A DNA stretch of 64,000 nucleotides from assembly GCA_019096065.1 (NCBI GenBank), contig JAGUCH010000008.1, positions 6,577,001-6,641,000 on the forward strand, in the 5' to 3' direction. The notes under the pieces are model-generated. The model was not told where the DNA came from. It saw only the letters and a program-made list of their open reading frames with translations, and searched no databases. This DNA is from Paracyclopina nana (lineage: Eukaryota; Arthropoda; Copepoda; Cyclopoida; Cyclopettidae). The position numbers and the translations under genes were made by a program. This document shows positions 30,282 to 64,000 of this stretch, one piece after another. The stretch's first letter is position 1. Each line of letters starts with the position of its first letter.

Positions 30282-31207
30282 TGATGGGCAATAAGTACAT
30301 CATGTCCCTGGTGCACGTTACGACCAGAATAGGACTTGATTGGACTCTTCCAGTGGAACCAGTGGAAACCGTGGAACCCGTGGAGCCCCCAGATGCCCGG
30401 AAGGTTGCCTATTCACCGCTACATCACCACCTCAAAATCACAAAACCTCCCTTCTTAAAAACACCTTTTTCATCTCCTCCAACTCTCTGATTATTGCTGC
30501 TGCTGCTGCTACTGCCTATACGTTGAGCCTAACCTATGGCAATTCACCTGACTTTGAGTGGAGGAGTTGCTAGCCATTGTATGGAGGAGTTGCTAGCTGC
30601 TCTATAGGGAGGGCCTGCTGCTGCATGATGATGGAGAGAAGCAGATGGAAGCTGATGGAACTTGCTGCCATGGATCGAGGGAAGAAGAAGGAGAAGACTC
30701 GAGGAGTTCGAGGGGGGACTTCAGAGAAGCAAGACATGGACCTAGTGCACAAGGCCCATTGAGTGAGCTCTGCCTTGCTATTGTCCCACCAAAGTTCTCC
30801 AAAGTGTGCTGAGGCATGAAGAAGATGGCCACAAGAATATTTACTGCAGTATTTATTGCTTTGTGTTAGTAGCCATTAATTTGTGTGGTGTTAAAAGCTG
30901 AGTGAATAAGACAACTCTGTTGAACTTTGTTTGACCATGACTTGTATAGTGGTTTTCTGGGCAGTTATGCATCCAAGTCTGAGGCTGTTGAGGTTGTTGA
31001 GGACTTGGGTAGGAGGCCCAATCACTGGTCTACAACACTGAAGCTTGCCATGTGATGTATCTCGCCATAGTTGGAGCACTGAAGCTGTGGCTTTGGGTCC
31101 AAGGCGGGTAGACATCCGGCCAGCACCCGGAGGCTGCGAACGGTACCGCGACCATAAAGCCGATGCTAACCATCCTAGGCTTTAGAGGGTGTGACCGTCG
31201 CACACCA
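30282..31207 (+). repeat. 5' LTR of copy L (926 bp)
   Basis: TG...CA repeat (TGATGGGCAATAAG to CGTCGCACACCA), about 95% similar by eye to the reverse complement of 42291-43216 and the same length. This copy precedes gag on the + strand; the other follows env on the minus strand. Those are exactly the LTR positions. A short CTG/GCT triplet run lies near 30495-30515. I did not find a convincing TATA box. Confidence 0.8.
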
Positions 31208-32158
31208 TTTTGGAGGCCCCGGAGGAATTGATGTACACTTTCTCTCCTAAAGGTTTGATGACCAAAAACCCATTGAAGTCCCGGAAAATGTCTTGGTGTG
31301 TATCAGGATTCCTGCTCTGCGGCGCAGGTTGGGCGGCACGCTGATTGCGATCAGGGTGTGTCAAATACAGTAAAAAATCCCGAAGGCTGACGAGCCGATG
31401 GGGGTCACTCCGATGGCATTTTGGGCCTTTGAGGTGCTCGTGCTTTATATTCCCTTAGGCCTAAAGTGTGCATCGATGCCGTTGGCGGGTTGGAACTGGC
31501 GCGCGGGGAGTGCAAGAAGGTACAGGCCGTGACGTACCACCAGCCCGTTGATGATGTCTTCCATGGACTATTGTTATGATGATGGGCCTACACAAAGTAA
31601 CAATGACACTGTCTTTCCCGGAGGTGAATGCATGCGTGCAGGCTCCGCATGGCATAGCTTGGAGTATGGGTGCCATGGCAGCCGGAAAGCCAGCCAAGGT
31701 GCAGGTTGCGACCTGAGCCTCTGTTGCCTATCCATCATGGGGCGAGTGAGCGCAAGAGTGGTGCGCCACTAGTGGGTCTCGTCCGTGGGTATGGCCACAC
31801 AGATGGAAGAAGATGATGTAATCCATGACCCCGCTGTGAGTCAATGAACCCCAAATAGGCCATGCATGGAGCCAAAGTGGGAGCCACAAAGGAAAATGCG
31901 TGTTTGGGGCCCAAAAAACTGGCTAACCTTGGACAAGTTGCCGAGGGCACAGGGAAGGTTGGCCGGCCCGCAACTTGAGGAGGAGTGGGCAAACTTTAAA
32001 TCTTCATTCACTGAGTCGACACTGGTTGGCGAAGTGGCATACCTTTTTTGCGTAAAAAGTTGATGCACCTTTGTTTCAGAGACTTAAGAAGAACCTACCA
32101 TCTGTGGCACCAGTAGTGCTAAACTCTTAACCTTTTCTATAATATAATAAGTGAGTGT

Positions 32159-32162
<4 letters not shown>

Positions 32163-32191
<29 letters not shown>
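32163..32191. repeat. (TG)n microsatellite
   Basis: About 14 uninterrupted TG units. Confidence 0.95.
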
Positions 32192-32193
<2 letters not shown>

Positions 32194-32467: not shown

Positions 32468-34840
32468 ATGGCAAATCAGGATTCTAGGATCGCTGGACCT
32501 ACACTGGTTGATGAAACTATGAAAGTTAAGGATCGATTGTTAAACCACCTTGGGATATCAGAGGCCTCCCTTCAAGGGTACCTGTCCCAATGCACCCCAA
32601 ATGGGACAAGCAGAGCTGAGTTGCAAAACTTTATGCTACATGTTGCTTATCCAGAAGCACTTGAGTTTGTTACAGTCACTCCAGCACAAGTAGCAGCTGT
32701 ATGGGAAAGGACTCGAACAGTACTTGTCCCTAGGGAGCCAGTCAGGCCGTTGGACGACCATATAAAAGCCATTATTGGGACTATGCCCCAAAAGGATCCT
32801 GTGGGCCAAGTTGTAAATGTGGTTAAGTATATAGACAGGCTTGACCCTGTTTCATTGACAAGCACTACATGTGCCTTGTTGTGTATTTGTTTTGGTCTGG
32901 ATGATATTTTGACGCGTATTGAGGAAAAGAAAGTTGCACAGCAGAATATTGCTCTCCAAGAAGTTGAGGGTAGCTTCATGATTAGTCTAACGCAAAGGAC
33001 ACAGGAAGTGGTTGCTTTACTGATATCAAGGAATTGGCAAAAGATCCGGACATTTGGAGATGGATTTTCCATTGTAGCGAGACTTTACGGGTTACAAAGT
33101 GACTTTTTTCTGAATGAACCGCTTTCGCTGAAGCCACGGATGAAAACTCCGGGCCAGAATGTACACTTTCCGGATAGTGAGACCAGTAATGCCGCACAAG
33201 ATATGTCGACAATAGCAAGCCCACCTGGGACTAACCATCATGAGCTCACAGAAGGAACTGACCAGGATGGCCATAATAAGTCAGTCCTGACTTCGACTAA
33301 AATGAATTCCCGTGATTTACACAACCTAACAAATTCAATTACGCTTCCTCCAATGGACGTTGCACATAGAATGGTACAAAAGATGTTGTCAGGGGGCCAC
33401 TTGAATATTCAAGAATTGAATACAGTTAAGGCTTATTATACGAAAATGCATGATGCGAGTACTGCAAACAAAATCATTGCCTCCGTGCAAATCACAGCTA
33501 AGCATATGGTTGGGGCAAAAGTGGATTCCATTTTCAGTAAGAATTTGGAAAGGACTTTAATTATAGTTGATGCTGCATCAAAGGAACGTATGGTGCCAGA
33601 AACTGACGTCATCTATGATGAGTCTGCTCCAATTTCAGAAAGGCTAAAACTAATTAATACTGATGAGATAAAGGATGTGGACTCAGCCAGGAGGGTAGTT
33701 CTTCAGATGGTCGATCCTAACCTGTCTTCAGGGAAGAAAATGATTGAAATGCAGAAACTCTTTAGTGTACTTAGCATGCGAGATGAATTTACTTCACTCC
33801 AAAAGCAAATATTGGCTGAGGGCTACTTAAAGACTCCTGAGATAAGTGTAGCAGCAGGAGTGTCAGCCGATACTTCTAAGAGCATTTATGACCCGACCAC
33901 CATGAAGGGGTACATTGCATGTCCTACAAATGGCCATGTTAAGTATGCCAGTTCACAGTCCATGAAGGAAATCAGGCACAAGTTCTCTAAAAAGTTCGAC
34001 CTACACAGTCCTTCATTAACTGCTGAGAATATAACATCTTTCTTAGAATATATGGCAACTGAGGCCGGCAGGCAGCATTGGTCCCATGCAGCGCTGTTAA
34101 CAGCTATGTGTGAGGCTGCCTCCCAGAATACTGGTGAATATTTTAAGGGAATGGCTGGAGAAGGGAAAGATGGCATGGAATTGCTCTGGCAAAACATCTT
34201 TAACTTCACTCAGTTCGTGCATAAGGAGGATGCATACTTCCTTATTCAGGAGCTGATCCGAAAGCCAACTGGGAGCTTCACTTCAACACTTAAGGAAATA
34301 TTTCGACTACGAATAAAGATACATAGTACATCCATTGGGGATGATGGGGACGCTCATGCAGTCTCTGAATCCATCTCTGACGGATTTGCACTTCTGAGAC
34401 GCCATTGGCCCCAAAATTATCAGTCATTAGTGAACAAATATAATGATTATTTGTTGAAGGCAAATATTCCGTCTAGGAGTGTGCATGCCTACAACATCAT
34501 GATGAACCTGATAGGCAGTGATCTGGGTACTTATGTGCCAAGGGATCATGATAGAGCTCATAAAGAGGAGAGGCTGCCAATGGTACCCAATATGCGAGCC
34601 AAGCCCAGAATTGCAATGGTAGAAGCTACTGAAGAAGATTTGTTAGATAGTGCTAGCACAACGTCTGCGGCTTCTGGCCGTAGTCAACAAAGTGCAAAAA
34701 TAATAAATGAGCTAAAGAACAAAAATACAGGGTGCAGCGCCGAAAATGCAACCGTGCTACAGCCAATTCGGCCGGTTTATTTACTACTTCAGAGCAGCCC
34801 GCTGTGTGCAGTTTCGGAGCCTCATACTGTACTTTCCTAA
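32468..34840 (+). CDS. gag: Gag-like protein of copy L
   Basis: The 790-aa frame starts at ATG 32468, preceded by an A-rich stretch. It is largely helical. Residues about 20-210 form one helical region with repeated hydrophobic heptads. Residues 210-290 are polar and low in complexity. About 290-690 resembles a capsid: MVQKMLSGGHLN, WSHAALLTAMCEAAS, LIQELIRKPTGSFTSTLKEIFRLR, LLRRHWPQNYQSLVNKYNDYL. I see no CCHC knuckle. The last 35 codons (after about 34730) are out-of-frame pol or junction sequence created by the internal deletion, so the true C-terminus is missing. The call rests on its place after the LTR and leader and on capsid-like architecture, not on a clear family match. Confidence 0.6.
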   Translation: MANQDSRIAGPTLVDETMKVKDRLLNHLGISEASLQGYLSQCTPNGTSRAELQNFMLHVAYPEALEFVTVTPAQVAAVWERTRTVLVPREPVRPLDDHIKAIIGTMPQKDPVGQVVNVVKYIDRLDPVSLTSTTCALLCICFGLDDILTRIEEKKVAQQNIALQEVEGSFMISLTQRTQEVVALLISRNWQKIRTFGDGFSIVARLYGLQSDFFLNEPLSLKPRMKTPGQNVHFPDSETSNAAQDMSTIASPPGTNHHELTEGTDQDGHNKSVLTSTKMNSRDLHNLTNSITLPPMDVAHRMVQKMLSGGHLNIQELNTVKAYYTKMHDASTANKIIASVQITAKHMVGAKVDSIFSKNLERTLIIVDAASKERMVPETDVIYDESAPISERLKLINTDEIKDVDSARRVVLQMVDPNLSSGKKMIEMQKLFSVLSMRDEFTSLQKQILAEGYLKTPEISVAAGVSADTSKSIYDPTTMKGYIACPTNGHVKYASSQSMKEIRHKFSKKFDLHSPSLTAENITSFLEYMATEAGRQHWSHAALLTAMCEAASQNTGEYFKGMAGEGKDGMELLWQNIFNFTQFVHKEDAYFLIQELIRKPTGSFTSTLKEIFRLRIKIHSTSIGDDGDAHAVSESISDGFALLRRHWPQNYQSLVNKYNDYLLKANIPSRSVHAYNIMMNLIGSDLGTYVPRDHDRAHKEERLPMVPNMRAKPRIAMVEATEEDLLDSASTTSAASGRSQQSAKIINELKNKNTGCSAENATVLQPIRPVYLLLQSSPLCAVSEPHTVLS

Positions 34841-35120
34841 TATTCCACGGATAGCTCCTCTAGCTCGTGACGACAAGGAATTTGCCCGTGTTAGATTTAC
34901 TAATACAAAAGCCAAACCAGACCCAAAAGAGACAGAGTTACTAGAAGAGGTAGTTCCTACTTGGAAACTGAATAAAAACATGGCTGCAGTTCCTGATTAT
35001 ATTCAGTTCCTCAAAGCGACCGGCATGGACCACCAAGATGATAGCAACATAAATGAAATGAAGCGGCTGCGTCTCACCTACGATGACCTATACCGGCTAG
35101 CTTTTAGAAAGTTTAAGTAA
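34830..35120 (+). pseudogene. pol: C-terminal end of pol, copy L
   Basis: Encodes the same 97 residues as the end of copy R pol (PNIPRIAPLAR...LAFRKFK), with two or three substitutions and the same stop. It is joined to the gag region by deletion. Confidence 0.85.
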
Positions 35121-38975: not shown

Positions 38976-39619
38976 CTAGACGACTCCTTCGAGGGGGTCC
39001 GCCTCCGCCACGCCCATCGTGCGGAGGACCCAGGCCGACACCCGGGGGAGGTCCTCCGGCTCGGCCCACACCCGGCTGACAAGCCGGTAGAGGCCCGGGG
39101 GTTTTGCCCGGTGGACCCAGGCGAGGGCAGGGAGAGCCACCAAATAATAGGCGGCCGCCCCTGCCAAGTTCAGGGCCACGCCCTAGAGGATCTCTTTGGC
39201 CTGTAATACGAGAAAAAGTCGAGCTTTCGAACTTTGAATAACCAGATAATGAACTGTTCACTTACGAAGCCCTGAACGGGGCAGGGAGGGCACTCCTCGT
39301 GGCCCAAGGGGGCTGCGGGCGGGGCCGCAGGTGACAGGGGCCACCCCGCCGCGGACTCGGCTGCGGGGGGCGCCCCTTCGGTCGCCAAAGCGGCTGGTGC
39401 CGCTGTTGTTGTTGTCGGATTCTACATTTATCGAGGAAAAACTCGTTTTACGAATGGATTCGATGGATTTAATCTAGAATAAAAACTTACGAACAGTCCC
39501 TCGAGGAAGCCCGCCATGTTTTGGACTTTTTGGTAAACAAGACGCGCTACCAGAAGGTTCCGGACAATAATCAGCCAAATTGTGCTTGATAAAGCCACTT
39601 TTCCGTTACGCATTTCCAC
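38976..39619 (-). CDS. gene W of copy L: small spliced membrane protein, unknown family
   Basis: Exon 1 is 39619-39491 (an ATG at 39517 is the alternative start, shared with copy R), exon 2 is 39421-39266, and exon 3 runs from 39182 or 39200 to 38976. The introns have GTAAG donors and are 58-85 nt long. With the 39182 acceptor (CTCTAG) all exons join in phase 0: a short N-terminus (MAGFLEGLF), a Thr/Ala/Pro-rich part ending CPPCPVQGF, then a hydrophobic segment (AAAYYLVALPALAWV) and a basic/acidic C-terminus. With the upstream acceptor (TTACAG) the protein ends after five codons at TAG. That TAG is conserved in copy R. The final TAG overlaps another GTAAGT donor leading to a 3' exon. W is antisense to gag and pol. 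Confidence 0.6.
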
Positions 39620-39988: not shown

Positions 39989-41034
39989 TTAGTTGGCATC
40001 GCTGTTGACATCATGGGAAGTTTTGGACCCAGCCGATTCCAGATCCTCGTTTGCGTCTGGGATTAGGTCAGTGGCATCGACTTCTTTGTCAGAAACCAAT
40101 TCTGCAGCCAAGTTCTGGCGACGATTCTCTCGGGTTCGAGCCCGACGAGAACGGCGCTTCATCGTCTGCCGACCATAACCTTCGGCGACAGGTACCTGAA
40201 AAAGTGCATTGAAAGAATAAATGAGAAATTCATTTACAGCTTGTGAATTGATAGGATCTTACCCAGCCTTTGGGATTAGGAACCTCATACACATGGGCCA
40301 AACCCGACATAATACTGGGATTTCGGCGCAATGTTCCGTATGGATCCATGGCGGCCATTGCCATTTGAAGCGACTGAACGTCTGGATCTCGCATAATCGG
40401 GACGGGCGGCAGAGCTCTAACATCCGGGGTACAGCAGTGGAATACTGTTGTGGGCTCGGTAGGGGTCTTGGTGGGGAGCATGTCCATGGCCTCCCTGGCT
40501 GCAGACTCATCTCGAATAGCACGGAACGTTGTCCAGATCCTACGGCACCAACGGGAAACCCACACGCACCCGTATACCAACATGCCGAGCAAGATCTGGA
40601 AATAAGCAAGTGACATATGAAAGTTATGGCTCTATGTATGAACATGGCCAAACATTAGAACTTACTAAAGCCATCCCAATGGAGGCTCCAAGGCCGATCC
40701 ATCCCATTATACCGTAACGGTGGTAGTTGAAGATTTCATTGGCCCAGTCCCTTTGAGGGGCAATGGGACGATAGTCGTCCGGTATCGCCGGCATTAAATC
40801 TCGGGGGTTAAACACCTCCACCTCGAAAGGATCGACAGGGGCTGGCCCACTGCCAGGCCTATCTTCTACAGCAGATATGCCATCCTCAGGGAGAGCAATA
40901 GTAGGGCCTATCGGGCTCATAACTTCAGGATCCACAACCACAGGATCCATGGCTGGCGAATTGACTGTAGCCTCAGTGGGAGCCTTTGTAGAGCTGCCCT
41001 CAGGAGTTAGAGAAATCCAGGCTAACACCACCAT
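39989..41034 (-). CDS. gene X of copy L: spliced single-pass membrane protein, about 302 aa
   Basis: Exons 41034-40666, about 40595-40263, and 40195-39989, with phase-0 junctions and short introns (about 70 nt, GTAAG donors, CAG acceptors). Copy R has the same three exons of the same lengths (369, 333, 207 nt). The N-terminal 105 residues are acidic and Pro-rich (VDPFEVEVFNPRDLMP, DYRPIAPQRDW). A hydrophobic segment spans the exon 1/2 junction (GIMGWIGLGASI...ILLGMLVYGCVWV), followed by RWCRR. The C-terminal part contains FHCCTPDVRALPPVPIMRDPDVQSL and a basic patch (KRRSRRAR). No family is recognised. X is transcribed opposite to gag and pol. Confidence 0.75.
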
Positions 41035-43216: not shown

Positions 43217-43319
43217 TTCCCCGGCCCTAACTTTTTCAGCTTTTGAAATGTTTTTAAGCTCTAAAAATATAAAAAAGGTGTCATTGATCGCTTACATCAC
43301 ATTAAGGGTGATACAGTTA

Positions 43320-45206: not shown

Positions 45207-45263
45207 CTTACCAGCACAAATACCGAGCAGAAACTATATGGGCCCCAAGACCACTAACTTTCC

Positions 45264-49329: not shown

Positions 49330-49335
49330 AATAAA
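49330..49335 (+). terminator. poly(A) signal of gene W, copy R
   Basis: AATAAA in a context conserved with copy L. Confidence 0.6.
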
Positions 49336-49580
49336 GCCCACGTACATAGTACTTTTTGTGTCCACTGTGTTTGTCGCAACTCATTTCGCGTTTGAGCTCA
49401 GCATTAGCTCAGCATAATACTCAGTAGAAAACTCAGCACCTTTCAGTAGAGTTTTAGTAACTCATTATCGCAGCCAAGCACATTTAAGTACAATTGTTTA
49501 CATTATATGGCCAAGAAGACCGCAAATATCAGGTTTCCGGCGTCATGTGCTGCGTTCTAATCGCATAATTAATCATTAGC

Positions 49581-52869: not shown

Positions 52870-55800
52870 TTACTTAAACTTTCTAAAAGCTAGCCGGTAT
52901 AGGTCATCATAGGTGAGACGCAGCCGCTTCATTTCATTTATGTTGCTATCGTCTTGGTGGTCCATGCCGGTCGCTTTGAGAAACTGAATATAATCAGGGA
53001 CTGCAGCCATGTTTTTATTCAGTTTCCAAGTAGGAACTACCTCTTCTAGTAACTCTGTCTCTTTCTGGTCTGGCTTGGCTTTAGTATTGGTAAATCTAAC
53101 ACGGGCAAATTCCTTGTCTTCACGAGCTAAAGGAGCTATCCGTGGAATATTAGGAAAGTATTTTTGCTCTTTACCAACTTTGCTTTTGTCTTTGTTATAT
53201 TTACGAATGCCTGCAAGTTCCTTATAATCTACGATTTCTTTTCTCGCCCGCAGTTGTCGTCGGGGAAGAATCCGCACCGGGGTGGGCTCACTCGTTTCCG
53301 GCTCAACTAGTTGAGCAGCGGCTGGAGCTTTCGGTTCATTTGGTTCGACGACCAGTGTGGTGGCCAAGCCACTTGGCTTATCAGAGGATGCCACAGGATT
53401 CGTGCCTAAAGGCTGATGAACAGCCAGTGGGGAACTTGTATCCTGGTCAGCCGTCAATGCTACTTCCGGATGAGCCAATGCTTTTGGAGTAACAGGCTGT
53501 GCAACCACAGGAGTACCCGCAGGTGCATCTTTGTCGTATTGCCGAAATCCTGCCATTTCTCTATAGTTTATGTTTTTTCTCCTTCTTAGGTTGCGAGGGA
53601 GAAAACGTATCGGAGACAGCTTTTCAGGTTCATATGGAGCCCGTACAGCGGCCTCAGGTGGTTCCTGAGTACCAGGTTGTGGGACTACTGGGCTAATTTG
53701 CCTGACAGCGGGGCGTGTGTCCTCAGGGGTAACCGGATGAGCAAGCTGCGCCTTTTCAGGCGTAGCCGGGGCACCCAAAGTTGTATCCCGTGCTGGGGTG
53801 TGCTCGAGCACATCCGTGTTTGGCACAATTTGTGGTACTCTAGCAATAGGTAACTCACTAGTACTTGGCTGAAAGTCAGGTTGCCTTATTGGACTTTTCA
53901 TTACAGTATACCGAACTTGAGGCTCCCCTCCCTCAGCTCTATAAATCTCAGGCTTAGGGGCACTGGGCCCTTCCGTAGGATTATCAATTGGTGGAGAAGG
54001 AGACCGTTTGCGCGGGGACAGCTCTAACTGGCGTCGTACAATATCAATCGCATTTTGCATGACATTTTTAATGTTTTTTGTAATTGGTGTACGCCGCAGT
54101 TGTCTTTTAGCGGTAAAATACAAAGTTGTAGTATCATCACTGTCACTACTTTCATCATCATCATCTTGTGCATTTCCACTGAATGGTTCAGTAGGAATTG
54201 CTAATTGCATACTTTCTAGGCCAGCAGATAGTGATTCGAGGTCAGTGTCGAACTTAGACGGTGCAATGAGAGAGGCTGCTTTTTCTACTACTTCCTCTAT
54301 ATTTTCATTGTCCTTATTAGGAGTTTCGGACATACTTTGGTCTGGAGTGTGATATTTCTCTGGACTTTCAGGTATAGCCGGCACACGTTGCTCACGATAT
54401 TGGCCACGAAAAGCCCACTTTACTGGGCTGACCCCTGCAAGTGTCCCTTCACTTACGTTCGAGTGATCAGGAGTACTAATATGGTCAGGTTTAACACTTG
54501 GCAAATTTGGGTATAATCGTTCTTGTTGGGCCATTTCAGCAAAAGTAGGGGGGCCACGTTGGCTTAAGGCCAGCAGGTCCTCATAAAATGCTTCATCAGG
54601 TCCAGTATTTGCACTTAGTGCGATTGCTCGTTCAATAAAATCATCAGTGTCAGTGTCAGACAAAGATTCACTTGTTTCTTTGTGGACGGTATTATTATCA
54701 GCATTGTTAGCTAGGTATTCATCCTCTAACTTCTTACGATCATATTGTTCCCATTGCTTTTGTACGAGTTGCTTGTTTTCCTCCTGTATTCGCAAAATAT
54801 CCGAGGGCTTAAACAAGCTCGCAGCCTTTTGCATGAGAATAGAACCGGAGCGCTTATAGGTTTGGTGTTTCGCACTTGGCTCAGTTCCCGTTGCCGTCGA
54901 CTGTGATATCAATGAACTTTGCGAGGCCACCACACTGGAGGCCTTAGTTTGATTCCGCAAACTATATTCATGACTTTCAGGGGCTGCCCCTTCAAGAAAT
55001 TCAATGACTTCATTTCTAGCTTTCTTACGCAATATTTCTTCCGGAGTGTAAGGTCGTTTCAGGAGGTCGGACAATTTCTCCGGAAGGAATCTATACAATT
55101 CGTGGAATCTATAAAGCTTAACATGATCTAAGCTTACTTCGCGAGTAAGCCCATCATAAAGGTATGGCTTTACAGTCACAGTCGAATGCTGTCCAATGTC
55201 AATAACTTCAAATAAATCATCCATAAATTTGTACTGTTGTTTATTTATGGGGTGTTTTATAACTAAAACTAATGATCCAATCTCAGGTTTAAAGGAAGGC
55301 CTTTCTGTAGCCTTCATTTTTTCTAAGTGGAACTGTTCTTCAAGATCATATTCGCGCATGCGTTGACGCCATTCAGCTTTATGAATTTTGTCCTCGCTTT
55401 CACTAAGTATTTCAAACACATCCCGTCCTAAATGATAGGACGGCATTTTATCAAAGAATAACGAAAAAGGTGTAGGGGTGATCTTCACCCCTTTATCATC
55501 AGTATATGCCAAATAAGTGAGAGGGCGATTATTTATTGCGTAAATAGAAGTCTTAAACACATCGCATAACTTCATATTGTATGAGTTAGAGTTTAAGACT
55601 AATGCACTCCTTATTATTCTTATAGCATTTTCAGCGTAAGCATTCGAATGCTTGTATGGCGACAAAGTTCGATAATGACATAACTCCTTAATTTTATAAC
55701 GATCAACAAGGCGTTGAAGGGCCTTATTAGTCGTTAACTGGGCACCATTATCTGCGAGTAATGTCTTGGGCACCCCAAACAAGGAGATTACTTCTTCCAT

Positions 55801-56352
55801 AGCATTCGCTACTTGCTTATATTTAGCATCCAATAGCGGCTTAGCAATTATCATCTTGGAATAAACATCGACAAATACTAACAGGTCCTTTGCAGATGAC
55901 CCTTTAACTAAAGTTTCATCGAACTTAGCCAAATCAATCATTACCAATTCCCACGGTTGGGTCGGGATGCGGAAGCGCCCTTTCCCAACAAACCTAGTAT
56001 TAGCTTGGCGGTATAAAGCACAATGCATGCACGCACCAATAATAATACGACTAATTCTGGCTGAGTATGTCGAATACATAGATTGTGTAAAAAGGGTGTT
56101 GGTCTTTTTACTCCCCAAATGGTTATGCAACAAATGAATACATGCCATAAGGTACACACAGTTAGGCATACTCATATATACTTTCGTATTGGTTGCAACA
56201 CTAAAAGGTAACTTTACATTCTTGCATATAACCAACAAGGCAGCATCAAGAACACGATATTTTACTGCAACATCTAGTGGTACTTTCTCCGGAGGCGAAA
56301 GCATAATTAGATTTATTATTTTTTGTGTCTCTTCACAATTTTGTTGCAACTT
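52870..56352 (-). CDS. pol: pol of copy R, second part: integrase and long C-terminal extension
   Basis: About 1160 codons. The integrase zinc region has HLLHNH and CMHC. The catalytic core has Asp in VMIDLAKF, Asp in LLADNGAQLTT and Glu in AYAENAIR, with about 39 residues between the last two. Roughly 700 residues follow that are not typical of integrase: an acidic, Ser/Pro-rich region, then two similar modules (LPRNLRRRKNINYREMAGFR near 960 and LPRRQLRARKEIVDYKELAG near 1060), and a conserved end also present in copy L. The frame is continuous with 62296-64000 once element C and one copy of its 4-bp duplication are removed. It is therefore one polyprotein, disabled by the insertion. Confidence 0.8.
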   Translation of the reverse strand, partial: KLQQNCEETQKIINLIMLSPPEKVPLDVAVKYRVLDAALLVICKNVKLPFSVATNTKVYMSMPNCVYLMACIHLLHNHLGSKKTNTLFTQSMYSTYSARISRIIIGACMHCALYRQANTRFVGKGRFRIPTQPWELVMIDLAKFDETLVKGSSAKDLLVFVDVYSKMIIAKPLLDAKYKQVANAMEEVISLFGVPKTLLADNGAQLTTNKALQRLVDRYKIKELCHYRTLSPYKHSNAYAENAIRIIRSALVLNSNSYNMKLCDVFKTSIYAINNRPLTYLAYTDDKGVKITPTPFSLFFDKMPSYHLGRDVFEILSESEDKIHKAEWRQRMREYDLEEQFHLEKMKATERPSFKPEIGSLVLVIKHPINKQQYKFMDDLFEVIDIGQHSTVTVKPYLYDGLTREVSLDHVKLYRFHELYRFLPEKLSDLLKRPYTPEEILRKKARNEVIEFLEGAAPESHEYSLRNQTKASSVVASQSSLISQSTATGTEPSAKHQTYKRSGSILMQKAASLFKPSDILRIQEENKQLVQKQWEQYDRKKLEDEYLANNADNNTVHKETSESLSDTDTDDFIERAIALSANTGPDEAFYEDLLALSQRGPPTFAEMAQQERLYPNLPSVKPDHISTPDHSNVSEGTLAGVSPVKWAFRGQYREQRVPAIPESPEKYHTPDQSMSETPNKDNENIEEVVEKAASLIAPSKFDTDLESLSAGLESMQLAIPTEPFSGNAQDDDDESSDSDDTTTLYFTAKRQLRRTPITKNIKNVMQNAIDIVRRQLELSPRKRSPSPPIDNPTEGPSAPKPEIYRAEGGEPQVRYTVMKSPIRQPDFQPSTSELPIARVPQIVPNTDVLEHTPARDTTLGAPATPEKAQLAHPVTPEDTRPAVRQISPVVPQPGTQEPPEAAVRAPYEPEKLSPIRFLPRNLRRRKNINYREMAGFRQYDKDAPAGTPVVAQPVTPKALAHPEVALTADQDTSSPLAVHQPLGTNPVASSDKPSGLATTLVVEPNEPKAPAAAQLVEPETSEPTPVRILPRRQLRARKEIVDYKELAGIRKYNKDKSKVGKEQKYFPNIPRIAPLAREDKEFARVRFTNTKAKPDQKETELLEEVVPTWKLNKNMAAVPDYIQFLKATGMDHQDDSNINEMKRLRLTYDDLYRLAFRKFK

Positions 56353-56356: not shown

Positions 56357-56599
56357 TGTTGTGAATTTGGTGTCTATATATAAGCGATACCTGACTTCTC
56401 TCGTACAAAGCCACAACTGAGTTTATTTCTCAACCAAGCACTGTATATACAATGTACTGTCAAGGTGAAATCGCATTGTACATCCTGCTAGGTGAAAGTG
56501 TGGTTAGGCAGCGCGGCTCGTACTATGCTACTATACTACTATATTACTGAAGGACGACGCGCTAGCGCCATGAATGGTGAAAGTTATAAAAACATAACA
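56357..56599 (-). repeat. 3' LTR of element C
   Basis: 243 bp, TGTTATGTTTTTATAAC to CCAAATTCACAACA on the minus strand. Confidence 0.95.
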
Positions 56600-56612
56600 T
56601 CCCTCCCAAGCT
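56600..56612 (-). other. polypurine tract of element C
   Basis: CTTGGGAGGGA on the minus strand, directly before the 3' LTR. Confidence 0.8.
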
Positions 56613-56758
56613 AAAGAAAGCTGTTGTTAACAGGGGGATGAAGGTATTAACGAAAACCACCACCAAGTCATAAAAGTTAGAAAGTGTAAAGTCAAACTTC
56701 GGGTTTGTCAGGTCAGGTCAAACAGGATAATTATGACCAAGTCATGTTAAGGCAGACA

Positions 56759-59700
56759 TCATTTTTTCTTAGGTCGCCCCCGGCCAGGCTTGTATTCTGG
56801 CGCCCTGGCTGGTAAAGGCTGGTCTTCTATCAAAACTCGTTGAGCTCTAGCCTGATTGCGTGTCAATGAGCTTGTGGGGTCTCGTCCCCCTCGGAAGCTG
56901 TCACGGAAACAGTTGAGTAGTTTCCTAGGAGAGCCAGGGTTACTTCTTGATGGTAAGTCTGGTGGTTCATCATCTTGAGTGGGTTCATTCACATCGTCAT
57001 GAATGAGTACCTCTTCCGCAGGTGGAGAGTCTGGTTCTTGCTTAATAGGTGGAGGTGTTGTTGTCATCGGAGAGGCAATGCTGGCAGCTGGTTCCTCTGA
57101 TTTGAAAGGAATGGGTGCTGGTGGAGGGTCTTGCGGATTCATGATGATCACGTCATCATCTTCAATTGTTATGTAGCCTCCTTTTGAGCCTGTGTCTAGA
57201 TGGGCAGGATCCCTAGAAGATGAAGTTTCAGGCAGGGTTTCCGGTAAGTCATTTGTTGCTTGAGCCAGTGGCTTAGATGGTGTAGATTTACAAACACGTA
57301 ATCTGTTTAAATGAACATATCTGGATTTGCTAGTGGAAAGATGTTGAATCAAAGCATTTGTGTCCTGGAGACTCACAATAACATAAGGTCCCTCCCACCT
57401 AGATCGAATTTTCGGATTGATTTTCAGAAGTTCTGGGCGATCCAACCAAACCAATAACCCTTCCCTAAAGTCTTCTGGCTTGATCTTGGCATCATAGAGC
57501 TGCTTGTATGAGTCACGATAAGATATGTTGCTTTCCATAGCAACTTGACGGGCAATCTTCATCCGTCTAGCAATTTCACTGATGTAGTCTTCCCCATAAT
57601 AGGTTTTGTCAACCAGATTTGGATCCATTAACGGTGTTCTGGGATGCACACCAAAAAGGAGGAAAAACGGACTCATTTTTGTTGCCTTACTCACACCACA
57701 GTTGTAGGAGAGTTGAAGCGCCGGTAGAAGGGGTTCCCATTCCAAAGGAGAAGATGTATCAAGCATCTTCTGCAAGTAACTTATAATGTGCTTATTAATA
57801 ACTTCAGCAGCCGCATTGCACTGAGGGTGGCTAGGGCTGGTTTTGCGCTTGTCTATCTGGAGCAGATCATAAAGCGATTGACTCAACTTTGATGTGAATT
57901 CTGCCCCTCCATCGGTAATGAGCACAGCTGGCGAGCCGAATCTTGCAATCCATCGATTAAAAATGGCCCCAGCAACAGTATCAGGTTGTTTGTTCTCCAG
58001 AGCGACAAACTCTGCATACTTGCTAAAAGAATCAGTGATAACCAAAATATACTTCTTTCCATCTGAATCCCTCAAAGGTCCAAAGAGGTCAGCATGGACC
58101 CGCTCCAGGGGGCCCTTTGGTTGCTGGTGGGGCAGCAATTCCACATTTGGCTGTGATTGCTTAGGTTTGGTTCTGTCACATTTCCAACATGAACTGATGT
58201 ATTCCTCAACATCAGCCAGTAAACTAGGCCAAAAATACTGCTCGCGAATTCTTTCACTGGTTTTGTAGATGCCCTTGTGCCCAACGGCGGCATGCGCAGC
58301 ACTTATAATGTCAGCATGACAAACAGCCGGTGCTGCCAACACTGACTTGTCCAAAGGCCCACTCTTCACAAATAACAAGTCATTCTTGACTTCACAAATA
58401 GGGCCGTATCTTCTAATAATTCGCTTCAACTCATGTTGTCTGGGTACAAGTCCTTGTTTGACAAAGGAAAGTAAGGCTGCAACTACCAAATCTGTAGATT
58501 GTAGCTTCTTCATAGCTGCCATGTCCTCCATGGCCTCAATAGCAACACTGTGGGTTTCACCACCTCGCAAAAGTTCAGGAATATTCCTCGAACAATAATC
58601 AGCAGGGTTCTCTGCTCCTGGACAATACTGCATCGTAAAATTGTGTTCTAACATCTGTTGCTGCAAGCGGTTCAATGTTCTGGAATGTGTCTTGTTCAAC
58701 TTCTCTAATGGCTTATGGTCAGTGTATAAAGTAAATGGGTTACCAGTTAAATAAACTGCAAAGTGGTCAATTGCCCATGTGCAGGCTAGCAGTTCTAACA
58801 AATAAGGAGTGTAGTTCTTTTCATGCTTCTGAAGACCTCTTGAGGCATAACCAATTACTCGTGGACTATCATCTTGATATTGGATAAGTACTGCTCCAAG
58901 GCCTCCATCATCGGCATCAACAGCACCTTGAGAGGCATCAACATAGAGATGAAAATCTAGGCCGGGTTTGGGATAGGCTAGCACAGGTTCCATACAGAGC
59001 ATCTTCTTCAGAATCTCAAAAGATTTCATTGCTTTTGGAGGAAGAGGGCCGCCCTTCCATCCACTGTCCTTACAAGTAAGACGAGACAATTCCTTTGAAT
59101 GTCTGCTGAATTGAGGAATACACGCTCTGAAAAAGTTAGTTAGACCCAGAAATTGCCTGATTTCTTTGACATTAGAGGGTGGCTTCACATTCGATATAGC
59201 ATCCAATTTCCTTCGATTTGGCTTGTAGCCCTCAGGGGTCAACGTGAAACCCAAGTAAGTGCAAGATTCTGTTCCAAAACTACATTTGGGTAAATTCAAC
59301 TTTAGGTTGGCCTTTCGAAGTCTCGCAAAGCATTCTTCAAGGCCTACTAACATGTCTTCATGCCCACTACCCTTGACAAGCACATCATCCAGGTATATCA
59401 ATACACGGGAAGGCGTCAGGCCTTGGAAAGCACACATCATCATTCGTTGAAAGGTAAGTGGCATCCCTGTTAAGCCAAAGGGTGCCCGAATATAGCTGTA
59501 TTGGCCCTTTCCAGGTATAGTGAAAGCTGTGTAGGGTCTTGAAGATGGTGCCAATTGCATTTGGTGAAATCCATGTCGAAGATCAAGCTGCGAAAACAAA
59601 CGGGTACCTGATGATCCTATGTCATCCAAACATTCAGAAATAAGAGGGAGTCTGTAGCTAGAGGGCTCTGTTTTTGCATTTAGGCCTCTATAATCCACCA

Positions 59701-60838
59701 CTGGTCTCCAACCAGTACCCCCATCGGGCAGTTTCTTAGGCACACAGAAAATACTTGAGTTCCAAGGAGAATCGCAGGGTTCCACAATGCCCATCTTAAG
59801 CCATTCTTCAATGCTTTTGTTGATTTCATCAAGATGTGACATGGGAATCTGGAATTGTCTGGCATGAACTGGTCGGTGGTCATGTAGGTCAATTTTGTGT
59901 TTCATCAGGGTGCAATCACCCAAGTCGAATTCTGAAGTGGAAATAATGTCAGAATTACGAAGTAAACACTTCAAGTAACTCTGACGTAAATTAGGAGGAA
60001 GATGATCAAGATTTGCATGCTTTAGAATATAGTCCTCCACCTGTCTAGAAGGCCTCCCCAAAACATTTTTATCATTTAAGAACACATCATGAACAGGGAC
60101 AATCTTATCAACACTGAAAATTTGCCCTATAAAAGAACCCTTGTCTAACTCAATAGGCAATAATCCTGCATTTGTAACCTTAATATTAGCGATTCCTTGT
60201 TGATTAGAGCGGATGAGGCAATCCTCCTTGCAAAGCTGGGCGGCATCGCTTATTTGGAGACATCCTTCAAAATGGCCTATGGGCGCATTGTCCTGGTTCT
60301 TTAGCTGCACAGAGATTGTAGCAACACTTCTGGCCGGTATGTACGTCTTTTTCTGAGTTCTCGCCTCAAGTTGTAACTTATTTGCAGAGCGGATTTCCAT
60401 CGATATGGGATCATAAAACAAGCCGGTAGCATGGATCAGGTCAATACCCACGATCCCATCAAGTGCGAGTCCCTCGCACACATAAAATGGCCACTTCAAC
60501 TGTCGGCCTTCTATCATACAGTCTATTTCATAAAGTCCATTGATCCTTAAAGGGTTTCCGGAAGCACAAGTTGCACGTAACATCGGAGCATTTGTAATTT
60601 TCTGAGGTCTTAGTTGGGGGGCAATTCTCCTGAATGCCATACGCGATAACAGGGAGATATTGGAGCCAGTGTCAAACAACATTTCAAAGGTGGCTCCAAG
60701 GCTGTGGATTGATACAAAAGGTCGTTTGGTATTCTCATTCGAGGATAGCAGGCTGAAACTTGTGATTGCGTGAAAAAGCTCAACGACCTTGCGACGACCA
60801 GTGGTGCGGAGCCCACCCTGGTCGTTTACCAGTTTAAA
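56759..60838 (-). CDS. pol: Pol of element C: protease, RT, RNase H, integrase
   Basis: The frame is entered by -1 shift at 60832-60838; the first internal ATG is at 60682. Protease has MLFDTGSNISLLS. RT has VDYRGLN, FSQLDLRHGFHQM (first Asp), APFGLTGMPLTFQ and IYLDDVLV. RNase H has YVDASQG, ELLACTWAID, LYTDHKPL and NPADYCSR. Integrase has HAAVGHKG/CWKC for zinc, HADLFGP, ITDGGAEFTS and AAAEVINK for the catalytic triad, then a GPY/F module (SRWEGPYVI). A Pro-rich acidic tail and a basic end (RGRPKKK) follow; I see no chromodomain. About 1360 residues in all, with no stop or shift. Confidence 0.95.
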   Translation of the reverse strand, partial: FKLVNDQGGLRTTGRRKVVELFHAITSFSLLSSNENTKRPFVSIHSLGATFEMLFDTGSNISLLSRMAFRRIAPQLRPQKITNAPMLRATCASGNPLRINGLYEIDCMIEGRQLKWPFYVCEGLALDGIVGIDLIHATGLFYDPISMEIRSANKLQLEARTQKKTYIPARSVATISVQLKNQDNAPIGHFEGCLQISDAAQLCKEDCLIRSNQQGIANIKVTNAGLLPIELDKGSFIGQIFSVDKIVPVHDVFLNDKNVLGRPSRQVEDYILKHANLDHLPPNLRQSYLKCLLRNSDIISTSEFDLGDCTLMKHKIDLHDHRPVHARQFQIPMSHLDEINKSIEEWLKMGIVEPCDSPWNSSIFCVPKKLPDGGTGWRPVVDYRGLNAKTEPSSYRLPLISECLDDIGSSGTRLFSQLDLRHGFHQMQLAPSSRPYTAFTIPGKGQYSYIRAPFGLTGMPLTFQRMMMCAFQGLTPSRVLIYLDDVLVKGSGHEDMLVGLEECFARLRKANLKLNLPKCSFGTESCTYLGFTLTPEGYKPNRRKLDAISNVKPPSNVKEIRQFLGLTNFFRACIPQFSRHSKELSRLTCKDSGWKGGPLPPKAMKSFEILKKMLCMEPVLAYPKPGLDFHLYVDASQGAVDADDGGLGAVLIQYQDDSPRVIGYASRGLQKHEKNYTPYLLELLACTWAIDHFAVYLTGNPFTLYTDHKPLEKLNKTHSRTLNRLQQQMLEHNFTMQYCPGAENPADYCSRNIPELLRGGETHSVAIEAMEDMAAMKKLQSTDLVVAALLSFVKQGLVPRQHELKRIIRRYGPICEVKNDLLFVKSGPLDKSVLAAPAVCHADIISAAHAAVGHKGIYKTSERIREQYFWPSLLADVEEYISSCWKCDRTKPKQSQPNVELLPHQQPKGPLERVHADLFGPLRDSDGKKYILVITDSFSKYAEFVALENKQPDTVAGAIFNRWIARFGSPAVLITDGGAEFTSKLSQSLYDLLQIDKRKTSPSHPQCNAAAEVINKHIISYLQKMLDTSSPLEWEPLLPALQLSYNCGVSKATKMSPFFLLFGVHPRTPLMDPNLVDKTYYGEDYISEIARRMKIARQVAMESNISYRDSYKQLYDAKIKPEDFREGLLVWLDRPELLKINPKIRSRWEGPYVIVSLQDTNALIQHLSTSKSRYVHLNRLRVCKSTPSKPLAQATNDLPETLPETSSSRDPAHLDTGSKGGYITIEDDDVIIMNPQDPPPAPIPFKSEEPAASIASPMTTTPPPIKQEPDSPPAEEVLIHDDVNEPTQDDEPPDLPSRSNPGSPRKLLNCFRDSFRGGRDPTSSLTRNQARAQRVLIEDQPLPARAPEYKPGRGRPKKK
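60794..60838 (-). other. -1 ribosomal frameshift signal of element C
   Basis: Slippery heptamer T TTA AAC in gag phase (60838-60832), then a 6-nt spacer containing the gag TAA, then a stem-loop (60825-60794): an outer 8-bp stem ACGACCAG/CTGGTCGT, an inner 4-bp stem GGTG/CACC, a 7-nt loop and one bulged A. Pol is open in the -1 frame from this point. This is the classical arrangement of a -1 programmed frameshift. Confidence 0.85.
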
Positions 60839-61980
60839 GGGTTGGAATGGTAGGAGGCACGAACTTCATTGACCTTCTTTGCCTCTTGCTCTGTTGCTCT
60901 CTTACTGCCAGGCCTTGGGTTGTACACGCCCTTAGCAGCATCTGCTTGCCTGGAAAAGCACTCAGCCTCACTATGATTCTTCTTGGTGCAATACCAGCAG
61001 ACCACGTTGGCTCGGAACTGTCCACTTGCAGGACCCCGCACTTGTCCTCGGGCTTGTCCTCGCACTTGTCCTCGCGCCTGTCCTCGCGCTCCACTTCCAT
61101 TGATTAGATTTACAAGTGCTCCTAGTGTCAGAGGCTGGTCGTGAGGATTGCTCTCCTGAGCACTGTCGGCCTGCTCAACAGCATGGACTTCAGGGACTGG
61201 TACAGTGGCTTTCTTCTCACTTGACAATGAGGCCTCTACACGTTTCGCAACTTTGAAGATTTCTTTAAGGTCCGTGATGTCATGCACGATCACCTGCTTC
61301 TTGATGGCAGGTAACAGACCTTGAATAAACTTTCGCCGGCATGCGAACACATATGCGCTCCTCTTGCACATTTCTACGGCAGCGTCATTTGTGGCGTACT
61401 CGCCCTCACCAAGGACGATGAAAGTCTCCATCAGGGTCATGACTCCAGTTTTTACACGGTCGTAGAAATCCCGCACGGATTCTGATGCCTCCTGCACCAG
61501 GCTGTCCTCGATTGCGGACTGTTCGGCTAAAGTGGCCTCATGATGCCAATGATCCAGGAACTCCTTCTTCAGACCAGATGCTCCACTCCACTGTTTAGGA
61601 GCAAATCCCTCTTCCTTTAGGGTGTTATACCATTGTGCTGCCTTGGCCTTAAGTGCCATGGCAGCGTACATGGCCGTCATTTCGTCTGTCCACCGTTGCG
61701 GCTGTCCAGCTGGGATGTTGTCGTTGGCAAGGGCTCTTAAATCGTCGATCCTCCTAGCCCATGCTCGTGCTTGCAGCTTGTCAACTGCCGGGTCACCACT
61801 AAATTCAGGTACATCAATTGCCTTGATATTACGTTGAGCCATGGTGAACAGATTTTGTTGGGGAAATGCGGAGGTTTCTGTGTTATCGTCTTGTGGTGGA
61901 GCAGTAGCTTGAATTGTGCCTTCTGATGAAGCCTCTTCGTAATATTCCTCCTCAAAATATTCGTCCTCACTATCAGCCAT
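60826..61980 (-). CDS. gag: Gag of element C, 384 aa
   Basis: ATG at 61980. The acidic start (EDEYFEEEYYEEA) is followed by a capsid domain typical of Ty3 Gag (IKAIDVPEFSGD, WARRIDDLRAL, AAQWYNTL, LKKEFLDHWH, VRDFYDRVKTGV, FIQGLLPAIKKQV). A short Arg-Gly-Gln repeat ((A/V)RGQ, five units, about 298-317) and a CX2CX4HX4C zinc knuckle (C-WY-C-TKKN-H-SEAE-C) come next. The stop at 60826 lies just after the slippery site. Confidence 0.95.
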   Translation of the reverse strand: MADSEDEYFEEEYYEEASSEGTIQATAPPQDDNTETSAFPQQNLFTMAQRNIKAIDVPEFSGDPAVDKLQARAWARRIDDLRALANDNIPAGQPQRWTDEMTAMYAAMALKAKAAQWYNTLKEEGFAPKQWSGASGLKKEFLDHWHHEATLAEQSAIEDSLVQEASESVRDFYDRVKTGVMTLMETFIVLGEGEYATNDAAVEMCKRSAYVFACRRKFIQGLLPAIKKQVIVHDITDLKEIFKVAKRVEASLSSEKKATVPVPEVHAVEQADSAQESNPHDQPLTLGALVNLINGSGARGQARGQVRGQARGQVRGPASGQFRANVVCWYCTKKNHSEAECFSRQADAAKGVYNPRPGSKRATEQEAKKVNEVRASYHSNPLNW

Positions 61981-62048
61981 TTAAATAGAACACAGCATCA
62001 CTCACACTTCATTCCCTCCAGGGCTGTAGGTAAGTGGCTGCCACCAGT
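61981..62048 (-). other. leader and primer-binding site of element C
   Basis: On the minus strand, CTGGTGGCAGCCACTTACC follows the 5' LTR directly. The TGGTGGCAG start suits a tRNA primer-binding site; I cannot name the tRNA. The leader is only 68 nt. Confidence 0.75.
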
Positions 62049-62291
62049 TGTTGTGAATTTGGTGTCTATATATAAGCGATACCTGACTTCTCTCGTACAA
62101 AGCCACAACTGAGTTTATTTCTCAACCAAGCACTGTATATACAATGTACTGTCAAGGTGAAATCGCATTGTACATCCTGCTAGGTGAAAGTGTGGTTAGG
62201 CAGCGCGGCTCGTACTATGCTACTATACTACTATATTACTGAAGGACGACGCGCTAGCGCCATGAATGGTGAAAGTTATAAAAACATAACA
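62049..62291 (-). repeat. 5' LTR of element C
   Basis: 243 bp, identical by eye to 56357-56599. Confidence 0.95.
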
Positions 62292-62295
62292 AATG

Positions 62296-64000
62296 AGTAG
62301 GTTGCGTGTAATTCCTGGTAAATGTGGCGATATTCGCCGTTTAACAGTGACTGTATCTACTCTTAAGTTATTTTCTATATGATTTACTGGTGAATCAAAA
62401 TCAGCTTCACCATGAAATGAGTGAGATATTTTTGAAAGTATCTCTTCCTCAAGAAATTCCTCATCATCATGTTTCGCGTGGAGTAAGGTTGACGTGTCGT
62501 CGTGTATAAATGGAGGTTTCGTGCCGATCATGTCTACCCATTTATCATTCAGGCAATGCAACCTTTTATGGAGTAGAGTCTTACTCATAGTTCCAGAATT
62601 TACAAGTGTATCATACACGTGTGTAAGTAATTCCTGTGTCGTAAGCACCTTATCTTTGATCGCATCGGGCAGAGGGTATTTATTTGCATAAATATCCTTC
62701 GTAATCTGTCCCGCAATAGAGTAGGGCGCATAAAATACAGTTTCACCTTCTGGTGTTTGATGGTATTTATTTAATAATACATCTACTACTTCTACCTCTG
62801 TGCGAGGTACAGCTCTCAGTTTCCATGCTACAGGCAAGGAATATATGCGAGCTGCTAGTCTATGAGTAAATGCATCTTTACCCGTAAATGAACTAGCAAG
62901 CACGCTAGCGATTGATAAGCAATCAGTAACTATTACCAATCGCTCATAGGCGAATAGTATGCTTTTAAAATGATTTATCATTGTTAAAACTCCTAATGCT
63001 TCACGTTGAAATGAGTGGTATGAGAGGCAAACCGATAGAGGAAAGCGTGCGCTGTGTGCACCAACACACACTGCTTTCCCATCCTCATTTACCTCCATTA
63101 ATAAAGCCGAGGTACTTATTACCCCAGAATCAACCACTAAATAACCTTCTTTAAAACGTGGTAGCGCCAACGACATACCCGTTTTAATCTCATCTATTAC
63201 TTTATAGAAACATTTTTCCTGGAAAGCAGAGAAGGTGAACTTTCCTGTTTTTCCTTGCGCTGTTTGTAATACATCTAGCAGTGGTGCTGTGTATGTGGCC
63301 ATATTGGGGCAGTACTGGCTTAACCAGTTTGTCATCCCAATAAACTTTTGCAGCTGTTTCTTGGTTGTAGGCATAGGGAAATCATCAAATGCAGACCTGA
63401 ATTTATCGGGCATTCGCATAGTCATAATCCCATTTTCGTCAATAGATATTAGGTGCCCTAAGACTGTAGCCTCTTTAACACCTAATTGGGTCTTTTTAAT
63501 TTGTAATAGGGCATTTAAGTCCTTAAGGCTTTGGAATAACTTCCTCAAATCACCCAAATGTCGTATGTAATCATCCAACGTAGCAGGCCTAGGCTTGCCA
63601 GGGTTCTTACAGGCCACAACCAAGTCATCTACATATACACATGTAAAGGGCAATATCTCAGGGTTAAGGGCCTGTTGGAGGAGCTCTGCGAACATTCTCG
63701 GAGCGATCGCGATCCCCTGGAGGCACGCCTTACTCTTCAAGAAGACCGACCTGTATATACTGCGAGGGGACGTTACCGCAAAGCAGCACATATCAGCACT
63801 ATCAGAGTCCACAGGTAAGTTATCGTATCCGGATGTAACATCAAAAGATGACATCAAACATGAATTAGATAACATCCCTAACAAGGTAGGGATAGGGGGC
63901 ACTATGTGCTCTGAGGTCGTAAATATCAGATTTTTATTAAAGGACGTTAAGTCGACTAATAGCCGAGGCTTGCGTTGCTTCATAGGCAGCTTTTCATCAT
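62296..64000 (-). CDS. pol: pol of copy R, first part: reverse transcriptase and RNase H (runs off the window)
   Basis: The frame is open to the window edge, so the true start (and any protease) is outside. RT motifs: LLVDLTSFN, SSFDVTSGYDNL (first Asp), an FLKSKACLQGIAIAPRMFAELL block in place of the usual Phe-Gly-Leu motif, and CVYVDDLVVA (catalytic Asp pair), then LGHLISID. RNase H: VVDSGVIST, REALGVLTM and VTDCLS. The overall order is Ty3-like but strongly diverged. About 150 residues follow with no recognised domain (KYPLPDAIKDKVLTTQELL), then the point where element C is inserted. Frame is kept into 56352. Confidence 0.8.

Follow-up and report, generated by a model that had tools for sequence, protein, structure and literature searches.

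How can an element that would be copied through RNA keep genes that contain introns? The question is raised by a locus of the copepod Paracyclopina nana (92-Mb genome of 10 contigs), within a stretch of 64,000 nucleotides of contig JAGUCH010000008.1 (C8:6577001-6641000; hereafter the window). From position 30282 onwards the window holds long copies of a giant retroelement with long terminal repeats (LTRs), in which gag-like, pol, Y and envelope (env)-like genes run in one direction and two multi-exon genes, W and X, in the other. Very probably this is a recently active, env-bearing, endogenous-retrovirus-like LTR element of about 23.3 kb that carries a conserved, intron-containing antisense gene W and usually also X. 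Such an ambisense LTR element is taken to be real because of its LTRs, primer-binding sites (PBSs), target site duplications (TSDs), ratios of nonsynonymous to synonymous substitution (dN/dS) and conserved splice sites. Coordinates of the features are collected in Table 1.

Two inverted copies in a nest of insertions

A first-pass annotation of the window had placed a giant ambisense LTR retroelement, with W and X in two copies, at 30282..64000. One element filling this span was rejected: when the window is compared with itself, two long copies of a ~23.3-kb LTR element appear in opposite orientations, both interrupted. They are designated A and B, and neither is whole inside 30282-64000. Copy A lies on the plus strand and starts with the LTR at 30282, and copy B lies on the minus strand with its 3' LTR at 42291-43216. 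The 926-bp TG..CA repeats in the first-pass annotation are real and 95% identical (30282-31207, plus; 42291-43216, minus), but they do not form one element's pair, being A's 5' LTR and B's 3' LTR. A foldback reading of the inverted LTRs was likewise rejected, the two belonging to separate copies.

Reading beyond the window gives the order of the nest, which comprises at least four insertions. B is inserted in the Y gene of A, and C, a relative with a 708-bp LTR, is inserted in the 5' LTR of B. A's Y gene breaks off at 42290; its continuation begins at C8:6673342 and is followed by env and the 3' LTR, so that the remainder of A occupies C8:6673342-6676885. A deletion has removed the 3' part of gag and the greater part of pol from A, with a junction at about 34715-34830. 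B continues past the window end and is interrupted by an ordinary Ty3 element (56357-62291); it measures ~23.3 kb once C and this nested 5.9-kb Ty3 are subtracted, and C spans 24.8 kb, any inserts included. Two further copies, D (L047) and E (L048), were used in the alignments described below.

A, B and C each have the paired LTRs, TSD and PBS by which LTR retroelements (Ortervirales) are recognized. The TSDs are of 4 bp: TAAA (A), GCTC (B) and GACT (C). In addition to the comparisons in Table 1, the 3' LTR of B differs from a second piece of its 5' LTR at 4 positions in 232 bp (L009:9619-9850; the pieces overlap), and the C pair has 1 mismatch in 708. LTRs are more alike within A and within B than between A and B, and the low divergence of the pairs in A, B and C indicates that the insertions are young. 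Both the primer-binding-like site at 31211-31229 and the polypurine tract beside the 3' LTR, proposed at first pass, were confirmed. The PBS begins after a TTT that follows the LTR. B's PBS, TGGAGGCCCCGGAGGGATT, fits CCA plus the 3' end of tRNA-Thr(AGT) (C2:6687982-6688055) over 19 bases, and that of C fits tRNA-Thr over 18 bases and differs at base 19.

Intron-containing genes W and X on the opposite strand

W has GT-AG splice borders in all four copies in which it was aligned (A, B, D, E). Its frame is free of internal stops in each of the four, the other five frames having 5-21 stops each, and an open frame arose in none of 5000 resamples. Between A and B the differences at codon positions 1, 2 and 3 number 34, 22 and 105, indels are codon-sized, and dN/dS is 0.096-0.152 over six pairs (synonymous sites are saturated in comparisons with C). 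These substitution patterns show that W is under purifying selection. The junction of exons 1 and 2 falls inside a transmembrane (TM) segment, and visual inspection of a single locus from each of the other subfamilies (C, L053 and L054) showed a junction of the same kind, although the W proteins are otherwise barely alike (the first exon at L053 is unsettled). What is kept in all four subfamilies is the predicted plan of a single-pass membrane protein: a Thr- or Pro-rich outer part, one TM segment and a basic tail.

X is smaller and encodes a hydrophobic protein. Its splice sites are kept in four copies, and it consists of a 9-codon exon 1, a Pro/Ala-rich exon 2 and an exon 3 of 67-68 codons (69 in C). 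A further intron lies in the 3' untranslated region (UTR), its donor overlapping the stop codon, with AATAAAG downstream. No Pfam match was obtained with the X of A. In 66 of the 80 X matches in the genome the open frame corresponds exactly to exon 3 (67-69 codons). Tandem acceptors precede this exon, separated by a segment with an in-frame TAG (CAG|GCCGAAGAGATCCTCTAG|GGC; 48945-48962, L046 and L053), and an alternative acceptor or stop readthrough are both possible readings of this arrangement.

Could these antisense reading frames be something other than genes, reflecting signals that are non-coding or belong to the sense strand and are conserved as such, or a non-coding antisense transcript? 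Antisense non-coding RNAs are known from other elements (PMC7264820), X exon 3 is open in other frames, and a third antisense promoter-like block in the element has no gene attached. However, the excess of third-position changes, codon-sized indels, single open frame, GT-AG sites and a membrane plan shared by four subfamilies are features of a coding gene in W, and X exon 3 is retained at 42-100% identity in three subfamilies. The non-coding alternative is thus improbable.

Are W and X then part of the element, or neighbours caught up in it? Four subfamilies, with reverse transcriptases (RTs) 50-86% identical, are present in the genome. Searches returned 72 matches to env, 96 to Y, 59 to W exon 2, 80 to X exon 3 and 75 to RT; all are lower bounds, the RT figure coming from 75 of 436 candidates scored. 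For synteny the matches were reduced by hand to 75 places with RT, 73 with Y, 68 with env, 56 with W and 79 with X; further pieces of a place already counted were left out, and fragments were joined or discarded. At every one of the 56 W places (56 of 56) exon 2 runs antisense to Y, the centres of the two lying 1.26-1.90 kb apart. Taken from Y, W is found at 56 of 73 places and antisense X exon 3 at 70 of 73. X lies on the strand of W within 6 kb at 56 of its 79 places, most of the other 23 belonging to subfamilies missed by the W exon query, and it is antisense to RT within 16 kb at 68 of 79, the remaining 11 having no RT match. One X place (C6:6501187) has only Y and env, 13-15 kb away.

The first-pass annotation had held that complete copies lacking W, X or Y between pol and env, or W and X matching ordinary host genes at unrelated loci, would point to a chimera or to local capture. 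All 56 W places examined are beside Y, so W is not a host gene scattered over unrelated loci. X was undetected at seven of 75 RT places and has one lone occurrence, at C3:2723320 (43% identical), with no W, Y, RT or env match nearby. A nest of at least four insertions can mimic structures of this kind, and W may have an ancient host origin: in Pfam the W protein of C (L046 8542-9550, minus strand) matches Commissureless, which in animals is a membrane sorting protein, just below the cut-off (Comm PF15957; 1.1e-5, 26.0 bits against 27.0). This match is limited to the TM region, and the W proteins of A, B, E, L053 and L054 (five of the six scanned against Pfam) have none. A genome search with the Commissureless family returned nothing, its positive control being equally silent, and W gave one chance match in the PDB (0.85). 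The Commissureless match is a weak, unconfirmed lead that bears only on where W may have come from. Local capture at this locus was ruled out by the other copies across the genome, and with gene order and strands identical at dozens of places in divergent subfamilies, capture or chimera together are highly unlikely. The synonymous divergence of W between A and B is 0.68, compared with 0.31 for Y, which hints at mosaic, recombining copies.

Sense-strand genes and lineage

The gag-like, RT, RNase H, integrase, Y and env-like genes do all run in one direction, as annotated at first pass. The gag-like open reading frames (ORFs) of B (856 aa) and C (832 aa) have C-terminal Cys/His knuckle-like motifs, and those of A, B and C match no Pfam gag family, a match that is not obligatory for Metaviridae. 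The stop codon of gag and the start codon of pol share a base in B and C, forming TAATG. The N-terminus of Pol has hydrophobic segments in B (L009) and C (L010), read by eye as two helices; this is an unusual start and may produce a membrane-anchored Pol precursor. There follow a DSGA protease motif, RT (YVDD), a Ty3-type RNase H and integrase. The protease weakly resembles the Ty3 peptidase (0.029 and 0.11). RVT_1 is above its cut-off, RNase H falls below it (22.8-23.0 bits), and rve comes close (E=1.6e-7, 31.9 bits against 32.6), with HHCC-like and D, D, E residues visible by eye. One RT from each of the four subfamilies carries YVDD or YIDD. Of the dual RNase H (tether plus RH) that marks Retroviridae, sequence profiles (Pfam) match one stretch after RT; a degenerate tether may have gone unmatched. 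Elsewhere in the genome Pol is a single frame, eight of the 75 RT matches lying in a stop-free frame of 2,669 codons.

An env-like gene is present at the single locus read in each of the four subfamilies. The other three subfamily proteins are 44, 28 and 28% identical to that of the window, and an alignment of one from each subfamily holds 11 invariant cysteines. It is intact at 32 of 72 matches (residues 1-628 covered, at least 92% identity, no stop). Y is 46, 22 and 23% identical in the other three subfamilies, two of the four rows being partial. For comparison with W, the dN/dS of env is 0.11-0.12 in three pairs, and that of Y between A and B is 0.05.

Neither protein could be placed in a family. 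No env homologue emerged from the protein collection, whether it was searched with one sequence or with a profile of four members (nothing at 0.01 for the profile; in each case the best 7,997 candidates were scored), the four members matched Pfam to E=5 only by chance (LapA_dom, 1.1), and the env profile had nothing significant in the PDB (best 0.26). For Y the PDB gave no match at 1, and gag, env and Y found none in PHROGs at 0.1. In viral contigs no relative of env or RT was found, five and one pattern matches, respectively, being unconfirmed. Aligned with the window's other env (PF24664), described below, only the TM segment corresponds.

Where does the element belong? Among solved structures its RT best matches a Ty3-type RT/RNase H (4.6e-20), followed by an entry named 'Enzymatic polyprotein' (6.8e-12), which we take to be a caulimovirus, and by retroviral entries from 3.3e-11. 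In the protein collection at least 13 RT relatives pass 0.001, 21-26% identical where given (best 7,995 candidates scored). RT identity to 21 Ty3-type RTs is 18-28%, a rough figure since a few rows, elB among them, are cut longer than RT; 20 of the 21 share 30-75% with the nested Ty3 RT. In a tree of 25 RTs the four subfamilies are united at 100/100 on a branch of 2.27, with Ty3-type outgroups throughout and no retrovirus, caulimovirus or Bel/Pao rows, a long-branch warning (P0013 with the giant-element clade) and 13 of 22 inner branches left open. That the lineage is undescribed, as proposed at first pass, is a judgement within the databases and literature covered.

Ty3/gypsy elements (Metaviridae) include env-bearing insect endogenous retroviruses. 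The giant element resembles them in its LTRs, tRNA primer site, protease-RT-RNase H-integrase order, short TSDs and an env-like gene after pol. It differs in its size of ~23 kb, in RT identities of 18-28%, in gag, Y and env without a Pfam family, in intron-containing antisense genes and in a separately started Pol with N-terminal hydrophobic helices. A very divergent member of Metaviridae would account for the best structural match of RT, the weak peptidase likeness, the gag-pol order and the 4-bp TSDs. Set against this are the low RT identities and the long, fully supported branch, albeit in a tree without outgroups from other families. The lineage appears deep and near Ty3/gypsy. Membership of Metaviridae has about an even chance, and so has a more novel reading, in which the element represents a family-level lineage of its own among reverse-transcribing viruses. 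Its provirus would then be organized like a small DNA virus: genes on either strand would be spliced and have separate promoters and poly(A) signals, introns would survive the RNA stage by lying antisense, Pol would be membrane-anchored and made by stop-start translation, and Gag, Y and Env would be unlike known proteins.

Table 1. Features of copies A and B, their regulatory-type signals and the Ty3 element nested in B, in window coordinates.
Feature	Position	Strand	Remarks
Left TSD TAAA, copy A	30278..30281	.	same 4 bp after A's 3' LTR in L050
A 5' LTR, 926 bp, TG..CA	30282..31207	+	12 mismatches in 928 aligned against A 3' LTR, L050:158-1085
PBS TGGAGGCCCCGGAGGAATT, copy A	31211..31229	+	complements 3' end of tRNA-Thr(AGT) plus CCA, one base changed
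A gag-like ORF	32468..34840	+	3' part lost in gag-pol deletion; 92% DNA match to B gag (L009), to ~34714
A remnant of pol C-terminal region	34830..35120	+	96% inverted match to 52864-53160
A gene X	38976..39517	-	39517-39491, 39421-39266, 39182-38976; 18-nt tandem-acceptor segment 39200-39183
A gene W	39989..41034	-	41034-40666, 40595-40263, 40195-39989; 302 aa, three exons
A gene Y, cut by B	41372..42290	+	remainder starts C8:6673342
TSD GCTC of B inside A's Y	42287..42290	.	repeated right of B's 5' LTR, L049
B 3' LTR, 926 bp	42291..43216	-	100% over 700 bp to L049:848-1547
Purine-rich, polypurine-like AGGGCCGGGGAA before B 3' LTR	43217..43228	-	similar in A and C
B env-like gene	43320..45206	-	628 aa; conserved cysteines, one C-terminal TM
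Box TATAAGGAAA upstream of env	45259..45268	-	invariant in 29 aligned env loci
AATAAA, poly(A)-like, after Y	45335..45340	-	invariant in 29 aligned env loci
B gene Y	45446..46822	-	458 aa; same gene as A's Y
Acceptor-like TTTTTACCTAG before Y	46869..46879	-	4/4 copies, small changes
TTATAA between Y and W	46899..46908	.	kept in A and B; D and E each have one altered base
B gene W	47096..48143	+	47096-47464, 47538-47870, 47937-48143; 302 aa, three exons
TATA-like box upstream of X	48262..48272	+	TATAAC in 4/4 copies
AATAAAG, poly(A)-like, downstream of W	48452..48458	+	same in 4/4 copies
B gene X	48633..49166	+	48633-48659, 48730-48886, 48963-49166; tandem-acceptor segment 48945-48962
AATAAAG, poly(A)-like, after X and its 3'UTR intron	49330..49336	+	same in 4/4 copies
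Third promoter-like block, antisense (TATATATA), with donor CAG|GTAAGT at its end	51069..51151	+	inside conserved 50917-51326
Pol of B, 3' half, with integrase and a long C-terminal part	52870..56349	-	Pfam rve
Nested ordinary Ty3 in B's pol	56357..62291	-	identical 243-bp LTRs, gag and pol domains; foreign to giant element
B pol: RT and RNase H	62292..64000	-	RVT_1 8.8e-14; runs beyond window

Signals, proposed expression and known parallels

TATA-like and poly(A)-like signals accompany genes on both strands. The TTATAAGGAAAGTTAG TATA box before env and the AATAAA after Y are both invariant in 29 aligned Y-env spacers (30 env loci were fetched and one was dropped by an offset filter). As the first-pass annotation had claimed for W and X, antisense poly(A)-like signals and the X TATA-like box are kept in four of four copies. 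The third antisense promoter-like block of B, which resembles a promoter with a first exon, is conserved in A (89% over 405 bp), D (91% over 401) and E (92% over 294), and no conserved gene was found after it. Since the acceptor-like site before Y occurs in all four copies, Y may be spliced from an LTR transcript.

TATA and poly(A) signals gene by gene, on both strands, could suggest that an LTR-bearing DNA virus, replicating as DNA, has become integrated. The paired LTRs, PBS, protease-RT-RNase H-integrase set and 4-bp TSDs, however, are marks of reverse transcription and integration, and Pfam scans of the element's ORFs revealed no DNA-polymerase or packaging genes; a DNA virus can be given almost no weight.

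For an LTR element with antisense genes, the following scheme can be proposed. The 5' LTR would drive the genomic RNA, and Y, Env, W and X would be expressed from the integrated DNA, either with a promoter and poly(A) signal for each or through splicing. Copying presumably goes through the sense RNA. The antisense introns would then persist because in packaged sense RNA they are not removable introns, and each new copy would carry them. As expected under such copying, W introns are present in the four aligned copies, where they were read; the genome-wide W search used exon 2 alone. W and X could serve as accessory membrane proteins at the interface of host and element. Judging from the predicted proteins, accessory roles at the membrane are the most likely function, with roughly an even chance, and regulation of sense transcripts comes next; antisense transcription may also damp sense expression.

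Several points weigh against this picture of an ambisense element with two antisense genes. Transcription, splicing and promoter use are inferred from sequence signals, and the splice models of W and X were drawn by eye. The TATA-like box between Y and W is altered in two of the four aligned copies. An AATAAA in the sense strand should threaten the genomic RNA. Of the two genes reported as multi-exon in both copies, X has in B an exon 2 of 157 nt, compared with 156 or 159 elsewhere, and is out of frame. The dN/dS evidence for X exon 3 is weaker (0.14-0.41 among copies of the main subfamily and 0.18-0.53 where C or L053 is one of the pair), and this short exon is also open in another same-strand frame and in one or two sense frames. 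X went undetected in one whole subfamily, its seven RT matches at 66-69% identity being the seven of 75 without X (X is found from RT at the other 68); at L054, the locus of this subfamily read directly, W, Y and env were seen and X was not. A single-sequence fold of env was uninformative (mean predicted local distance difference test score, pLDDT, 34) and was not used.

How much of this has precedents? The plant elements Grande, RIRE2 and Retand have additional antisense ORFs between pol and the 3' LTR (PMC7264820, PMC11963269), and the Grande antisense gene is conserved across copies and transcribed from its own promoter; the same work urges a search for antisense and spliced transcripts (PMC7264820). 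The giant element shares with Grande and Retand a conserved antisense ORF in this position. Theirs encode nuclear, TRP28-domain proteins, and the word 'intron' is absent from both main texts, whereas the giant element has spliced, membrane-type genes together with Y and env, in an animal. No TRP28 domain was found by Pfam in six W proteins and one X protein. In retroviruses, HBZ of human T-cell leukaemia virus type 1 (HTLV-1) is a minus-strand, alternatively spliced gene, and foamy viruses have a second, internal promoter (PMC3185809). HBZ is one ORF in pX, however, compared with two antisense units in ~6 kb between pol and Y.

Size alone is also not new. Planarian Burro and plant Ogre are giant gypsy-like LTR elements with extra coding capacity, in Burro with env homology (PMC6431247), but the extra domains of Burro lie in a 4,873-aa ORF1 polyprotein and 'antisense' is absent from the main text of that paper. 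Kuafuorterviruses are an overlooked group of animal LTR elements, distant from the lineages known, mostly of 5-6 kb and with an RT motif IADD, VADD or LADD (PMC11673190); at ~23.3 kb and with YVDD or YIDD, the giant element falls outside Kuafuorterviridae. Odin elements have dual RNase H and no env, and the env-like gene here does not fit them. No animal LTR element with multi-exon antisense genes was found among the titles and opening lines of abstracts listed, bioRxiv and most subscription journals lying outside their scope. Antisense genes in LTR elements and giant LTR elements were thus known already; their combination in an animal appears new within the literature covered, and possibly represents a new family.

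The locus indicates that in an animal, and in four subfamilies, an LTR retroelement can retain genes with introns if these are encoded antisense. It offers a test case for how far reverse-transcribing elements approach the gene organization of DNA viruses and for how giant LTR elements persist, raises the question of how genomic RNA is produced past an internal poly(A) signal, and adds Gag, Y and Env proteins without a known family in the databases searched.

Other insertions surround the giant copies. RTs resembling that of the nested Ty3 (56357-62291) are numerous in the genome. TTAGG-like arrays and an 18S end also occur, as would fit an arthropod. At 15802-25902 lies a separate Ty3 element, whose gag weakly matches PNMA and whose env ORF (16471-18438, minus strand) matches Pfam Monjiviricetes_fusion at 1.4e-78, and a partial second relative of this glycoprotein lies at 12877-14100 on the plus strand (E=5e-24).

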